In this document: positions 17,644-61,491 of the stretch, in pieces
Numbering within the stretch: position 1 is the first letter of the stretch
Layout: each line of letters starts with the position of its first letter
The notes under the pieces: model-generated
Database searches by the model: none
Seen by the model: the letters and a program-made list of their open reading frames with translations, nothing else
What the model was told of the DNA's origin: nothing
Translations under genes and position numbers: made by a program
NCBI GenBank assembly: GCA_963965975.1
Contig: OZ014412.1
Coordinates: forward strand, 11,203,849-11,267,848
DNA: 64,000 nucleotides
Direction of reading: 5' to 3'
Source of the DNA: Xestospongia bergquistia
Taxonomy: Eukaryota > Porifera > Demospongiae > Haplosclerida > Petrosiidae

Positions 17644-17860
17644 ATATATCAAGGTTGTTTCGTACATTTATTGAGTTATGAAAAACATAGGGGTTACTAG
17701 AGATGTGTAAGCATAGACTGTGACACACTAAAACTAGCTAGATGTAAGTACTTACTAAGAAATGCCATCTGATTTATGCTAATATACTAGCACACATGAC
17801 CTATCTAGTATACAGCCATATATGGAATCGGATTTAATTAGAATTAGAGTAAATTACACA

Positions 17861-18244
17861 AGATCGGGCGGATCACTTTCGGCCGCCTCCCACAGGACAA
17901 ACGTGCGAAAGAACGAACTTCTTTACCCTGCTACCATAAAGTATAATCCTTTACTTGTTTATTCTGATACCTTTGATAATTTCTTATCTTTACTGTGCAG
18001 AGCAACAAAGTTTATAAAAAATATTTCGGGCACATGCGTAGGCGGACAACAATAATGTCAATTCGTACGAGTGGCAAAACTCTTCTCACGATCAAGCAAA
18101 CTGAGAAAGCTATGGCTGGCAGGATTGATTGATGACTGAACTACAACACCATAGCCAAACCATTTCTTTCAGCAAGGAGTTCACGTCTCCAAAGAGCAAA
18201 AGATCTGAATGGGTGTGGACATGAGTATTCGGACACACCTTCAT
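17861..18244 (+). other. Unassigned sequence upstream of the pogo gene
   Basis: GC-richer than its surroundings (for example GGGCGGATC near 17868). It has an open frame ending at 18055 and another stretch around KAMAGRID near 18115 that look protein-like but match nothing I recognise. It could be a 5' part of the pogo element. Confidence 0.3.
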
Positions 18245-18430
18245 CAGTGTAGCGTGCTCTCAACGTGGCTCAACGTGTTTGCACTTTGCTCTCAAATTGG
18301 CTATTGCTCTCATTATTGCTCTCATTCTCACCTTTAACTTTGCTCTCAACGTCATTGTGGTCTTTACTCTCAACGTGTTCACTCTCATTGTGGCATTTGC
18401 TCTCAACGTGGTTGTTGCTCTCATTGTGGC
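18245..18430 (+). repeat. Degenerate short tandem repeat (TTGCTCTCAACGTGG)
   Basis: Variants of TTGCTCTCAACGTGG and TTGCTCTCATTGTGG repeat here. Read in frame they give the Leu/Ser-rich N-terminus (LLS.WLLLSL) of the transposase open frame. That part is therefore probably not original transposase. Confidence 0.75.
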
Positions 18431-20184
18431 CTAGCGATTTAGAATTTGCACGCAGTGCTGTTAAAGATGGCATATCTATTAGACAAGCAGCAGAGGAGTA
18501 CCAAATACCCAAATCTAGGCTACAAGATCACGTGTCCAGAAAGGTAATAAGTGGTAGTAAAAGTGGTCAAAAGTATTTGACAGAAAGTGAAGAAGAAGAG
18601 TTGGTATCCTTTATTTTGGAAACAGCAAAGATTGGATTCCCACGAACAAGAAAGGAAGTCTTGTCATTAGTTCAAATTGCAGTTAACCAAAAAGGCAAAA
18701 ATGTAACAGTGTCCAGTGGGTGGTGGGAAGGTTTTAAGAAGCGGCATTCCGAAATTTCACTTCGGACCACTGAGCAACTTGCCAATAAACATGCAGCAGC
18801 ATGCACTCTTGATGTATTAAGTAATTACTTTGATTTACTAGAGCAGACAGTTCTGGATAATGACCTTGTTTCAAAACCTAATCAGATATTTAATTGCGAC
18901 GAAACGGGAATGCCTCTCAATCCAAAGTTTCCAAAGGGCATAGTGGCTAAAGGTATCAAACATCCGAGAGCAGTAACAACAGGAAATAAAACCCAGATGA
19001 CTGTCCTTGCTTGTTGTAATGCTGCTGGATATTGTTTGCCACCTTTTGTGCTGTTTGACAGGAAATGTCTTAGACCAGCAATGTGTGATGGTGAGGTCCC
19101 TGGGACTATGTATGGTCTCTCAGATTCAGGGTGGATAACTAGTGAATTATTTGATTTATGGTTTGTACATCACTTTTTGCCTCATGCTCCTGCTGCTCGT
19201 CCTCTACTCCTATTACTAGATGGCCACTCATCACATTACAATCCTTCAGTTATCAGTAAAGCTGCTGAGGAGAAAGTGATAATTTTCTGTCTACCACCTC
19301 ATTCATCACATGAAACACAACCACTAGATAAGGGCCCATTTGGTCCATTAAAAACCTCTTGGAAAGAAGTGTGTCGGAAGTTTTTGGCTGACAATCCTGG
19401 GAAGGTTGTTAGCAGGTTCACGTTTTCCAAATTGTTTGGTGAAGCATGGATGCATTCAATGACTTTAAAAAATATTCAGGCTGGTTTCAAGTGTACAGGG
19501 ATTTACCCCTTGAAGAGGGATATGATTGTTCCACTGGTGAAAGATACAACCACCAGTACTCTTGCACAGCGCACTGGGTTGAAGTTTATACCACTGTATA
19601 GCCCTGTGCGGCAACAACGCAGATCTGCTGTTCCTGAATTCACACAGGAAGAAGAGTTACATTTTCAGAGAAGATTTGAAGAAGGTTATGATATAGATTC
19701 TGATAATCGTTACAATTCATGGAAAGAAATGCATCAGTCATCTAATGATGTTAATCCAGAGGCCAATCTAGGTTCTCCTTTGTCACATGATATCACACTT
19801 GTTAACAGTGATATGGCTACACATTCATTGGTTCCTGCATTTAATCCTTACATGTATCCATCCTGCACTCCCGATACATTTCAAGTAGTGGTACCTGTAC
19901 TCAATTGTCAGTCTCAAAAGAGTATTTGCAATGACTATACTATGCTTCCATTTCTCTATGTTCCTCCAAAACAATTTGAACACTCTGCCAATCTCCAACG
20001 ATCGTCTACTCTTTCAAAAGTCATAAATGAAGAAAGACCTGTACCCTTTTGTAAGCTCCAGTTATACCACCAAAACATAGTGGAAAAGTTTTGACTAGTG
20101 AAGAGAATCTCAGAGCTATAGAAGAAAAGGAAAGGAAGAAGCAGGAAGAACTGAGAAAAAGGGATGAACGAAAGGAGAAGAGAA
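18265..20184 (+). CDS. pogo-type (DDE_1/CENP-B family) transposase, main exon
   Basis: A 609-codon frame runs from 18265 to a stop at 20094. About the first 55 residues come from the short tandem repeat, so the true start is uncertain. From FARSAVKDGISIRQAAEEY there is a helix-turn-helix DNA-binding region, then the catalytic core: D212 (FNCDETG), D319 (LLLDGHSSH) and D355 (QPLDKG). The 35-residue gap between the last two is normal for pogo/Tigger. Coding character continues past 20094 in another frame (KHSGKVLTSEENLRAIEEKE, basic/acidic helix) to a donor at 20184/20185. So one frameshift lies between about 20055 and 20094, because the distance is too short for an intron. Function by family: cut-and-paste transposition at TA targets. 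The downstream phase-1 exons belong to the same gene. Confidence 0.85.
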
Positions 20185-20234
20185 GTAAGATTGTTGATAT
20201 CCCAATACATGTAATCGCATTTATATCTCATTAG

Positions 20235-22269
20235 ATCAAGCAAGGATTAAAAAATTGAATAAACGTAAGAAAAAGGACCTTTTGTGTTAGTATTATTAAT
20301 AATAGGAAGTGCACCCCTTGAAAAGTCTTCAACATGTAGAAGAGGTTCTCAATTGCATTCTAGCTTTGATGATGGTAAGCATTGTGAGTGTCAAGTAACA
20401 CCATACAACATGCACTGGTACATGTAGCTTGCTTCTTCCTATCTTTGGAGATAATCAATCACTGGGAAACATTTCTAATGAAGGTACCGTAAATCAGGAG
20501 AATTTCGTCATTACGTAATTTTTTGTACTTGTGATGATGTACAAAAATTATTTAAGCAAATATTAATTTATGCGCATGTGCAATATGGTGGAACAATGGA
20601 ATATACGAAAATAAATCAAAGAAAAAATTTAATACGTGAATATTTTTCAACATGAAATATTCCAGATTTACGGTATTATATAAATAATCATGTACTGGAA
20701 AGTTGCACTTGTAGGTTTTTACCACTCTACTTTTTCTGATATATTTACCACTAATCTCACATGTGCTGAAGCTGTTGCCGAACCTTCTTCTTTAACAGGT
20801 ACAATATATTAACTTGTCAGTGTTTCTGTCACAAATTGGTATTACTATCTAGGCACTGATAGCACTCGTAGTCTCACACGTCCTAAAGCTACTGCTGAAC
20901 CTTCATCAACAGGTATGTTAACTTGTCAGTGCTTCTGTCACAAATTGGTATTACTATCTAGGCACTTATAGCACTTGTAGTCTCACTCGTGCTAAAGCTA
21001 CAGCTTCAACAACAGGTATGTTAAGTTGTCAGTGTTCCTGTCACAAATTGGTATTACTATCTAGGCACTAATAGCACTCGTAGTCTCACACGTGCTAAAG
21101 CTACTGCTGAACCTTCATCAACAGGTATGTTAACTTGTCAGTGTTTCTGTCACAAATTGGTATTACTATCTAGGCACTAATAGCACTCGTAGTCTCAAAC
21201 GTGCTAAAGCTACTGCTGAACCTTCATCAGCAGGTATGTTAACTTGTCAGTGTTTCTGTCACAAATTGGTATTACTATCTAGGCACTAATAGCACTCGTA
21301 GTCTCACACGTGCTAAAGCTACTGCTTCAACAACAGGTATGTTAAGTTGTTAGTATTCCTGTCACAAATTGGTATTACTATCTAGGCACTGATAGCACTT
21401 GTAGTCTCACACGTGCTAAAGCTACTGCTGAACCTTCATCAACAGGTATGTTAACTTGTCAGTGTTTCTGTCACAAATTGGTATTACTATCTAGGCACTA
21501 ATAGCACTCGTAGTCTCACTCGTGCTAAAGCTACAGCTTCAACAACAGGTATGTTAAGTTGTCAGTGTTCCTGTCACAAATTGGTATTACTATCTAGGCA
21601 CTTATAGCACTCGTAGTCTCACTCATGCTAAAGCTACAGCTTCAACAACAGGTATGTTAAGTTGTCAGTGTTCCTGTTACAAATTGGTATTACTATCTAG
21701 GCACTTATAGCACTTGTAGTCTCACTCGTGCTAAAGCTACAGCTTCAACAACAGGTATGTTAAGTTGTCAGTGTTCCTGTCACAAATTGGTATTACTATC
21801 TAGGCACTAATAGCACTCGTAGTCTCACTCGTGCTAAAGCTACAGCTTCAACAACAGGTATGTTAAGTTGTCAGTGTTCCTGTCACAAGTTGGTATTACT
21901 ATCTAGGCACTAATAGCACTTGTAGTCTCACACGTGCTAAAGCTACTGCTGAACCTTCATCAACAGGTATGTTAACTTGTCAGTGTTTTTGTCACAAATT
22001 GCTATTACTATCTAGGCACTTATGGCACTTGTACTCTTAAAGCTACATCTAAGGAAATGAAGAAAAGTGTTAGAGGTGAAATGAATTTTATTGGCCAGTT
22101 ATCATTAATAGTTTCTATTATAGTTAGTAATTGCCTACATAAAACTTGTGCTCATCCAAGGGCAACCACTTGGGTGAATTGTTCGAATTGGTACCATTGC
22201 AGTTGTGTCAATGTATTATACACTGTTGCCAAGAGAAAAGACTTTAATTATGTTTGTGAAAACTGTTAA
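20235..22269 (+). CDS. 3' exons of the pogo gene: symmetric micro-exon array and PHD-like finger
   Basis: After the donor at 20184 a chain of exons with GT/AG borders follows, each starting and ending in phase 1: 20235-20264 (30 nt), 20306-20374 (69), 20451-20483 (33), 20715-20798 (84), then eleven repeat exons of 60 or 54 nt, then the last exon 22016-22269. The repeat exons encode GTNSTRSLTRAKATAEPSST or an 18-residue form, a Ser/Thr/Arg-rich linker. The last exon ends CLHKTCAHP...WVNCSNWYHCSCV...FNYVCENC and a stop. This fits the second half of a PHD zinc finger, a module I recall at the C-terminus of some pogo-type transposases. All exon lengths are multiples of three, so copies can vary without frame loss. 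Splicing is predicted, not shown. Confidence 0.7.
20487..20673. mobile_element. 187-bp MITE with TA target duplication
   Basis: The ends are CCGTAAATC and GATTTACGG, flanked by TA on each side (20485-20486 and 20674-20675). This is typical of a Tc1/mariner/pogo-mobilised MITE. It sits in an intron of the pogo gene, starting 3 nt after the exon end at 20483, so the TA of the target is part of the splice donor. Confidence 0.75.
20799..22015 (+). repeat. Tandem array of 11 exon/intron units (103 or 109 bp)
   Basis: Each unit is an exon starting GCACT and ending ACAACAG, ATCAACAG or ATCAGCAG, followed by an intron from GTATGTTAA to ACTATCTAG. Exons: 20853-20912, 20962-21015, 21065-21124, 21174-21233, 21283-21336, 21386-21445, 21495-21548, 21598-21651, 21701-21754, 21804-21857, 21907-21966. 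The introns after each of these exons are exactly 49 nt. Exon sizes run 60,54,60,60,54,60,54,54,54,54,60. Unit boundaries coincide with splice sites. Confidence 0.9.
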
Positions 22270-22313
22270 TTTTTGTATTAATGGTTTTTGACTGCAGTCT
22301 CAAATGACAAGCA

Positions 22314-24378
22314 TTGCATTCAACTAAGGTGGCAAATTTCACTCAAAGTGGATGTGGATGCACCTTGTATAATGGAGGTCCCTGCAGCACAACTTTTACT
22401 CCAGACCATCTAAGTAGCATCCGTAGCCAATGTCAAGAGTTAGATCGCTCTTCTCTTGACCTTGTCCTTTTAGGACAGATAATGGCTACTAACTCTCAGT
22501 CTTCGTTAGTCCAACGTAGCCATCAGAAATCTGCTACTAGAATGAAGACAAGAATGTCTTATTACCATCAAGGCATTCAAATTTGCCGAACTACCTTCCT
22601 TTTTCTGCATGGAATAGGAAAGAGGCGATTGGATAACGTCCGGGTATCATATGAAAACGATGGACTTATCTCAAGGACACATGGGAATTGTAATCGTAGA
22701 CCACACAATGGGTTTACAACGCACGAGCTCATCCACTGTGTCACATACATTAAGAATTATGCAGAGACTAATGGGATACTCCTCCCAGGTCGAATACCAG
22801 GATATAAAAGAATGGACATTCAATTATTACCAACTAATACAACCAAACAATCAGTCTGGAGAGAGTACATTGAGGCGAGTAGGTCTTTATACATTCGTAC
22901 TGCAGGTTATCACAGCTTTTGTAAAATTTGGAAGAAGTTTCTCTCTCATATTCTCATCACAAAACCAAAATCTGGTCTTTGCTGGGTGTGCCAAAGAACT
23001 ATCAGCAATACAACTAATCTATCTGAGAGTGTGAAACAACAAGTAAACTTAAATATTTTAATACTATAGTTTTATTTACGTTTAATAGGCACTCCAACAA
23101 GCCATAGCTCATTTAGAAAGAGCTCAAATAGAGAGATCACACTACAAGTTACAATGTACTAAAAGCAGAGAAGACCTGAAAAGGACATTTACATCTCCTG
23201 ATGGTAATTACTCTCCACCTTTGATTGGCTCTCCGTTCTCTCCGTGCTCTTTGGATATCACTGTGCACACAAGTTTTGACTTTGCTCAACAAGTTCATTA
23301 TCCCTCTAATCCACTCCAACCTGGACCCATCTATTTCCTCACACCTAGAAAATGTAGCATTTTCGGAGTTTGTTCTGAAGAGCTACCTAGGCAGGTAAAT
23401 TCATAATTAATTTTGTTACTAACTTATACTTACTCTTGACTGTAGGTAAACTATCTCATAGATGGAGCTGTTGACACTGGAAAAGGCTCTAATACTGTTG
23501 CCAGCTTGCTGCATGACTATTTCTCTAATTTAGGACTAGGAGAAATGGATCAACAGTTACATGCTGATAACTGTGTTGGCCAAAATAAGAACAACACAGT
23601 CATGCAGGTATGTATGTCTCAATTAATTATAATAACTACTATTAACTATTGCTATTTTTTATAGTACCTTCAATGGAGAATCATGATTGGCTTAAGTCGT
23701 TCCATTACTTTGTCATTCATGGTCGTTGGTCATACAAAATTCACACCTGACTCATGTTTTGAGTTAGTCACACAGCGCTATCGGAGAACGAATATTGAAT
23801 GTCTTAGTGATATTGTCGATGTCGTTAACAAGTCTGGCTACATCAACCATGCCAGACTAGTTGGTACGCAAGAGGGCCAAGTTCTCATACCAACTTACGA
23901 CTGGCAGACATATCTCTCACCTCATTTCAAAAAGATACAACAAATCAAAAACTTCCTTCAATTTAAATTTTCATCAGAACATCCCGGAGAGGTCATCTGT
24001 AAGGTATACAGTGACAGTGAAGAGATAAAATTAGATATGCGTGTAGATCCTTTGTGGGAACCTAATATCTCTGATCTTCCACCATTAGTTCAGCCACGAG
24101 AATTATCTCAGGAGAGACAGCTGTATCTTTACGAAAAAATACGTCCTTTCTGTACTGAAAGATCAATGGATTTGACATGTCCTATACCGTCATATCTTCA
24201 AGAATCAACAACTTCAGTGCTAGCTCCAACAACCTCTCGTACTATACCATCATCTCATCCTCCATCTCCTTCTCTATTAGATGCTCCATCTCCACCTACT
24301 AAGAGATTAAGACAGTGTGGTAACTGTGGCAGAGCTGGTCACAATCGTCGTTCTTGTAAACAAGTAGAAGAAAACTAA
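22314..24378 (+). CDS. DUF7869-like transposon protein with zinc knuckle (4 exons visible)
   Basis: Exons: about 22323-23042, 23089-23394, 23446-23607 and 23665-24378, joined by introns of 46-57 nt that keep the frame. The first has a Cys-rich start (SGCGCTLYNGGPC), then LDLVLLGQIMAT and a segment with LLPGRIPGYKR. The second has a helical part (ALQQAIAHLERAQ) and QPGPIYFLTPRKCSIFGV. The third carries LIDGAVDTGKGSN and HADNCVGQNKNN. The fourth carries the VVGHTKFTPD motif and ends in a CCHC knuckle (CGNCGRAGHNRRSC). I recall this D...DNC.GQNKNN...GHT core from DUF7869-type proteins of cnidarians and other invertebrates. An RNase-H-like (DDE) transposase is likely but inferred. The start is not certain because the 5' part of the element is missing. 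Confidence 0.7.
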
Positions 24379-59742: not shown

Positions 59743-61491
59743 ATGAAGATACTCCTGTTTGCAGTCGTATTCTGTCTGGCAGTTACTGCCAAAGCTCAGA
59801 ACTGTACAGCTCTCGCTAATGCTGGTGACTGCGACTTCTATACTGAGTGTGTAGAGCCAAAATTTCAATGTGGTACTAATGGATATCCTCTTGCCTATGG
59901 TAATAAGTACTGCCATCGTTTCGTAAACGAGCAAAGTTGTTTCACATCTGCTGTAAGTATTTAGTGTTTTCTATAAATCATTTCATTCATATCATATAGG
60001 GTCGAATTTGGATTGATAAAGTGAAAAGTTGCCTTATGAAAGCCATTTTGAACAGTAATGTTTATAAAACAAACGGAACATGCGATAAATTAGAGGAATT
60101 TGCTTTCGATAGCCATCCCTCCTGTTATACTGACAGTGGATTCTGTACTGATATTCTGTCAAGTCCAATGTGTACTAACTTAATATGTCTTGCTAGTGAC
60201 GTCTTTGACTTGAAGGATTTCTTTACTATACATGCAATTGACCAGGTTTGAAACCAATAATATATATATAATTAAAGACAAAATATCTCTCTAGGTTATT
60301 AAAACAGCAACTACATGTCGCAGACAGAATGCTGATAGTTTCCTATCCATTGCAGCAGACTGTATAGTAAATGTTTTACGACTTGGACTAGTTCGTGCAT
60401 ATGAACTCCTTAAAACTTTAAAAAAAATTCTTGGAGGTATGTGGAACTGTGCAATGTGGCAATTGTTATAAATTTATACATATGTATAGGTTGTGATTCT
60501 GGTCTGGATATTGTTTTTGTGTTAGATGCTTCTGGAAGTATTGGTAGCAGTAATTTTGTAAGAATGAAGGACTTTGTGAAAAGCGTTGTTTCCAATTTTG
60601 AAATTGGAGCTGACAAAACACGTGTTGGAGTTATACGATATGCAACCTCAGCATCTATTGTAATTCCACTTGGTTCTACTGATGATTCTTTATTACTTAA
60701 TAATTCTATTACTAATATTATTTATACTAGTGGTGGAACAGCTACACATTTAGCTTTAAATCTTCTAGACATTGCATTTAGTAATGCTCGTACAAGTGAA
60801 GGAGTCCCTCGAGTAGCTGTTGTTTTTACTGATGGTCAATCTAATTCACCATCTTTAACTATTCAAGCTGCACAGGCTGTTCATTCAACTGGTATAGTAG
60901 TATATTCATTTGGTATTGGAAATAATGTCGACAACGATGAACTAAATGCTATAGCGTCTAGTTCTAGTAATGTCTTTGTTATCTCAGATTTCTCTCCTGG
61001 TCAATTTGCTGACAAACTGCTCCCATTACAAACATCAGCTTGTACAAGTAAGCATATTATACATTCCATAAATACAATGTAATATATGCTTACTATTAAA
61101 ACAGCTCCAGCTATTGTTCCTATAAGTGAGCCATTGAGGACAAGTCTTGGTATGGGCGAATCCCGTTTACTGCAGTATCCCTTTCCTGATGAAGGCATTA
61201 CACTTAAAGTTGATATTACATCGGGACAAGTACTAGTCCATGGATCATTCACAATACAAAATCCTAATTCATTAACAGCTGATTTCTCAATCACAAGTAC
61301 TAATAATGGTATAAATTTCTTCATAAGTCCTGACTTATATCATTCATCAATTGGTGGTTCACAAACAATTCGTGAACGTCGTCAAATTGGCTTACCATCC
61401 ATTACAACAACTAATGTCTACTTATCTATTGAGGGCTTACAAACAAATAACACCTTCTCTTTAAATACAACATTTGGAGATACTAGTAAAG
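59743..61491 (+). CDS. Secreted protein: stanniocalcin-like region plus vWA domain (5 exons)
   Basis: Exons: 59743-59952, 60000-60245, 60295-60436, 60490-61047 and 61105-61491, all GT/AG, with introns of 47-57 nt and a continuous frame. Residues 1-20 are a signal peptide (MKILLFAVVFCLAVTAKA). Exons 1-2 hold a cysteine framework (CDFYTEC, YCHRF, WIDKVKSCLMKAIL, FAFDSHPSCYTDSGFC) resembling stanniocalcin. Exon 4 is a vWA domain with a complete metal site: DASGS, Thr in GGTATH, and Asp in FTDGQSN. Exon 5 adds a beta-rich segment (TSGQVLVHGSFTIQNPN). The gene ends in phase 1 at 61491, so it must continue: a candidate 12-nt exon follows at 61581, otherwise a stop comes at 61580 by intron read-through. 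It is a paralog of the minus-strand gene at 336-1018. It probably acts outside the cell in matrix or ligand binding. Confidence 0.85.

Follow-up and report, generated by a model that had tools for sequence, protein, structure and literature searches.

How a tandem repeat built of complete exon/intron units can sit in the middle of a transposase gene, and what it would contribute to the protein, is the question raised by this locus. The window, that is the whole stretch of 64,000 nucleotides analysed, holds such an array on the forward strand at 20799-22015; the interval opens with a lead intron of 54 nt (20799-20852), which precedes the first repeat exon, and closes with the final base of the last intron. 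Splitting at the splice signals resolved 11 units with a start-to-start spacing of 109 or 103 bp, and TRF called the array at 20805-22037. Each unit consists of a 54- or 60-nt phase 1-1 exon (60, 54, 60, 60, 54, 60, 54, 54, 54, 54 and 60 nt in order; n = 11) and a GT..AG intron, and exactly 49 nt of intron follow each of the 11 repeat exons. The sequence-only reading had proposed this interval, these 11 units of 103 or 109 bp, their division into exon and intron and the repeat peptide that they encode; the units were reproduced exactly to the base and the rest was borne out. As a control, tandem arrays (TRF, period of at least 80, at least 2.5 copies) were called in 115,916 bases outside the element, namely the rest of the window and the flanks of 12 of the 14 related copies fetched from the genome. 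Two were found, both flanking one locus, L016, where a 147-bp tandem repeat of 3.6 copies lies on each side of the element. Against this control, the array in the element is not a chance occurrence.

The array belongs to a damaged copy of a transposable element, here termed family A, that BLAST against copy L009 and other copies traced on the forward strand from its 5' end at 17845 to 22325, where element similarity is lost; the 3' end is missing. Its 5' terminal inverted repeat of ~405 bp (17845-18249) matches the 3' end of L009, read in reverse, over 405 bp at 99.3%, and L009 carries inverted repeats of ~405 bp at its ends. The remainder of the main transposase exon (18433-20184, its end taken from the L009 gene model) has Pfam matches to HTH_psq, HTH_Tnp_Tc5 and DDE_1 and a K/E-rich tail. 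Exons with counterparts in the L009 model lie on both sides of the array, all phase 1-1: one of 30 nt (20235-20264), a Ser-rich one of 69 nt (20306-20374) and one of 84 nt whose end is similar to the repeat exon (20715-20798) before it, and one of 60 nt (22016-22075) after it. The last exon of the model (22124-22269) encodes a PHD-like finger, damaged here, and the stop. Compared with other family A copies, the window copy is without ~330 bp that include the first coding exons. Its reading frame is lost towards the end of the transposase exon and its PHD finger is partly missing, and the whole protein cannot be made from it. Just past the end of element similarity, an intron-containing frame (22308-24378) that encodes a DUF7869 domain and a CCHC knuckle is probably another mobile element. 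Elsewhere in the window, a stretch of 7-9 kb occurs in three near-identical direct-orientation copies (26700-53000) with gag-like, reverse-transcriptase/integrase-like and hAT/Tc5-like frames, and the arms of an inverted repeat, 181 and 227 nt long (601-1018 and 59743-60157; 84-85%), lie ~58.7-59.2 kb apart.

The gene model was built on L009 and comprises 19 exons encoding 985 aa, with all 18 introns in phase 1 and the phase-1 frame open from start to stop. One early exon, which the window lacks, represents a diverged form of the repeat unit. DDE_1 was matched with E 5e-21 in the window and 2e-20 in the more distant copy L039, and both HTH_psq and HTH_Tnp_Tc5 were above the curated cut-off in the window ORF and in L039; these two domains are given for pogo transposases in PMC7386202. 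In the L009 model, 35 residues separate the second and third D of the catalytic triad (DD35D), within the range reported for pogo, and a TA target-site duplication as in the pogo superfamily was found at one insertion, that of a nested copy. We therefore assign the element, by its predicted protein and that duplication, to the pogo-type DNA transposons.

A search of the genome (146,460,797 bases in 21 contigs) placed array DNA at at least 15 places, and likewise transposase DNA (98-100% identity) and the tail. The 14 family A places besides the window were fetched with flanks for comparison, and all 15 family A copies found carry the array. A satellite free of the transposase was looked for and ruled out, since the 15 array places found all lie in copies with transposase and tail; L019, where a nested copy interrupts the transposase exon, is counted as carrying the transposase. 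Between 6 and 11 units were counted per copy, and L013 has 12 by span, one above its count, its first acceptor being different. The sequence-only reading had described the encoded repeats as linking a pogo transposase to a PHD-like finger, and the units as free to be gained or lost whole. The linker position agrees with the L009 model and the Pfam domains, and the check on other genomic copies showed that unit number varies from 6 to 12 among the 15 copies, with seven exon-length patterns that bear out whole-unit gain and loss. L009 and L010 have identical arrays, as do L019 and L020, and these pairs may not be independent. The nested copy is L020 (446-5707), a family A element within the transposase exon of L019, itself of family A. 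When the flanks of L020 were joined with a single TA, they agreed with the uninterrupted site at 82/82 positions in L009 and L014 and at 81/82 in the window. This clean TA duplication indicates that L020 moved in one piece, array included. The termini of family A copies mostly adjoin TA.

The explanation that we favour, with a modest leaning, is that a fast-turning, length-variable and frame-neutral cassette array encodes a spacer between the DDE transposase and the PHD finger. Its observed part comprises the anatomy, the differences in unit number, the mobility of the element as a whole, the recurrence in eight families and the exons in multiples of three; to these we add, by inference, splicing, disorder, tethering and the mechanism of unit exchange. 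The transposase gene would be interrupted by phase-1 introns only, and its middle would be made up of cassettes that can replace one another, in each of which a symmetric phase 1-1 exon is paired with a short intron. Once spliced, the array would yield a spacer, repetitive and polar, with hardly any aromatic residues and probably disordered, that joins the DDE catalytic part to the C-terminal finger; the finger may tether the enzyme to chromatin, with the spacer supplying reach. Cassettes of this kind are frame-neutral, and units could therefore be added, dropped or replaced by unequal exchange or slippage with the gene left unbroken, so that unit number would vary between copies and unit sequence would be turned over between families, while the place and phase of the array persist.

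Other pogo elements of the same genome were examined for such an array. A protein search with the transposase gave at least 82 matches (81 of the 579 candidates scored), from which 16 more distant copies were fetched with their downstream DNA unseen, except that L052 was chosen as a second representative of a family whose array had already been found. A tandem array lies downstream of the transposase in 14 of the 16, or in 13 of the 16 at the control threshold of 2.5 copies, because L044 has only 2.2, against two arrays in the 115,916 control bases; L042, which is decayed, and L045 have none, which counts against the favoured reading. A PHD-like finger is readable after the array in 12 of the 14 array-bearing copies; L047 has only a piece of a finger, and in L043 no finger is visible among the listed frames. 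By unit and transposase the 14 copies form seven further families, eight with A, to which the labels A, B, C, D, D', F, G and H were assigned in this analysis. Each unit in the further families is readable as a phase 1-1 exon and a short GT..AG intron, with repeat exons of 66 nt in B, 60/84 nt in C, 60/69 nt in D', 57 nt in F, 54 nt in G and 72 nt in H, and of 90 nt plus 51 nt in the 248-bp double unit of D. The phase-1 frame is essentially the sole open one in B, C and D; A and G have a second open frame as well, as do most exons of D' and F. The unit peptides are polar, and 9 of 10 are without an aromatic residue; for the A/R/T/K-rich ones, a mimic of the H3 tail is conceivable. By transposase, B is nearest to A (copies 70-81% identical), and the copies of D, F and H are 48-56% identical. 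Pogo copies near 48% identity also occur at steps of roughly 50-170 kb on contigs C5, C6, C7, C10 and C15, several with identical scores, as if they were parts of very long tandem segments. One scan each of a prokaryotic and a viral contig collection returned no relatives, which says little given the makeup of these collections.

The spacer might nevertheless be a tolerated by-product, its exons spliced and translated and its repeats functionless, since symmetric exons can duplicate harmlessly where a protein tolerates insertions; we regard this as unlikely, although with a real share of the probability. It would account for residues that show no purifying selection (pN/pS of 0.26 to 8.1 between units, which we count against the favoured reading), for unit peptides without detectable kinship between families (43 pairs, 3 with p < 0.05 where about 2 are expected) and for the retention of only about 2 units in L044. 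Tolerance is less easily squared with arrays in 14 of the 16 distant copies and in all eight sampled families, always after the transposase, a recurrence that suggests something more.

It is also conceivable, and in our judgement quite improbable, that the array is an RNA-level device in which the small introns matter and not the peptide. Retained introns, in a switch comparable to the intron of the P-element, would truncate the protein before the PHD finger, or intron-rich transcripts would pass as host genes and escape silencing. An unconstrained peptide beside splice ends kept in 151/151 counted family A units speaks for such a device, and retention of a 49-nt intron would shift the frame. 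No stop, frameshift or loss of GT/AG was seen in any of these 151 units; this counts for the favoured reading as well, though weakly, given how young the copies are. The 42-nt introns of C and G, in contrast, stay in register, so that a frame-shift switch is not general, and conserved PHD fingers past the array argue for normal read-through.

For the favoured reading, in which the units are exons, exon length was measured in L009 of family A and in L039, L046, L047, L048, L049 and L052, copies with no stop in the matched part of the transposase (L047 has one further down the exon, beyond that part). Gaps of at least 130 nt between recognised introns were excluded, and the splice anchors that cut out the exons are independent of frame but were chosen after the sequence had been seen. 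All 65 measured repeat exons of this uninterrupted set, which are 42-90 nt long and occur in mixes of 54/60, 60/84, 60/69 and 42/51/87/90 nt, are multiples of three. One of the 65, in L039, holds an in-frame stop, which counts against the favoured reading. Interrupted or partial copies (L040, L041, L043, L050, L051, L053 and L054) gave 39 multiples of three among 45 exons and a stop in 7 of the 45; L042 and L045 were left out of the test, and L044 yielded no complete exon. Introns within single arrays vary by 1-2 nt (40/42, 48/49 and 46-49), and, with 65 of 65 exons in multiples of three, changes in length that would shift the frame fall in the predicted introns. Two further results count against the favoured reading: a generic splice matrix that ignored frame ranked the model intron first in only two of eight unit consensuses, its own first choice leaving a multiple-of-three exon in four of the eight, and five exact spliced-junction patterns (families A, B, C, F and D') found no match that would mark a spliced retrocopy. 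That the array is instead a non-coding satellite in one large intron, skipped whole and hitch-hiking with the transposon, is very unlikely, for although blind scoring of splice sites gives equivocal results except in A and D', such a satellite would hardly keep all 65 exons of the uninterrupted set in multiples of three beside freely varying introns or the phase-1 frame of L009 open.

Collagen and tropoelastin genes also have many small symmetric exons that encode a repetitive protein; they are non-mobile structural genes of the host, whereas here the gene is mobile and the unit is turned over between families. Schistosome micro-exon genes, as described in the available text of PMC8293314, contain runs of small symmetric exons that can be omitted without breaking the frame, as here, but they belong to the host, encode proteins that are exposed or secreted, and have exons mostly of at most 36 bp. 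The present transposase gene, with repeat exons of 42-90 nt, falls outside that class as defined there, and its near-identical tandem unit of exon plus intron has no counterpart described in that text. In tandem exon duplication an exon and its intron are duplicated side by side, and one exon of the set is chosen if they are mutually exclusive (PMC9013439, in part); here the model joins all units, up to a dozen or more, in a mobile element. These two are the nearest designs, and they differ in the kind of gene and unit. From the surveyed pogo superfamily the element differs by its 18 introns, exon array and C-terminal PHD finger; the words PHD and intron are absent from the main text of the surveys PMC7386202 (Gao et al. 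2020) and PMC7325037 (Dupeyron et al. 2020), and no transposon gene of such design was found in searches of the open-access literature. If the favoured reading is right, a mobile element draws on splicing and on exon cassettes that leave the frame intact to let part of its own protein evolve freely. Exon gain and loss could then be observed directly in young copies with whole-cassette differences, and the spacers of these copies, which set transposase and histone reader at different distances, would form a natural series in which the effect of tether length on chromatin targeting is testable.

The C-terminal finger itself appears from its sequence to be a PHD of the histone-reading type. The L009 finger matched Pfam PHD with E 7.1e-5, just under the curated cut-off, which the D and H fingers exceed; those of A, B, C and F and both fingers of G are below it, and the D' piece has no Pfam PHD match. 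In a comparison with solved reader fingers, which covered B and D, the B finger is ING-like (best match to ING proteins 6.2e-17) and the D finger is nearest to KDM5B (3e-6) and KDM5A (2.8e-5). Members of the ING and KDM5 groups are readers of H3K4me3. In RAG, the PHD finger is in a second protein and the transposase superfamily is other than pogo, and we know of no exon array in RAG1/RAG2 or RAG-like transposons. The combination of DNA transposition chemistry with a PHD finger is shared with RAG1/RAG2 and RAG-like transposons. Work on these transposons includes PMC4411706 and PMC7204232.

When the fingers were aligned with the zinc-ligand frame held fixed, three groups formed: A, D, F and H (z 6.7 to 10.0), B with the second finger of G (z 11.9), and C with the first finger of G (z 16.3); pairs across groups reached z of at most 4.8. 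B is nearest to A by transposase, yet its finger falls in another group, so that relationships by finger and by transposase disagree, a mismatch that would have arisen by swapping or by loss. We raise tentatively, as a possibility that we rather doubt, that this pogo clade is a phase-1 cassette system with a fixed slot for a self-replacing exon array and histone-reading PHD fingers traded between families at the same phase-1 junctions, in which spacer and targeting module would change as cassettes are exchanged and the catalytic part would be retained. Its basis is that the finger of A belongs to the group of D, F and H, apart from the ING-like finger of B, and that family G bears both C-type and ING-type fingers; loss from a many-fingered ancestor would look similar. 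In copy L051, two unlike PHD-like fingers, the first of family C type and the second ING-like, follow each other at 1395-1989.
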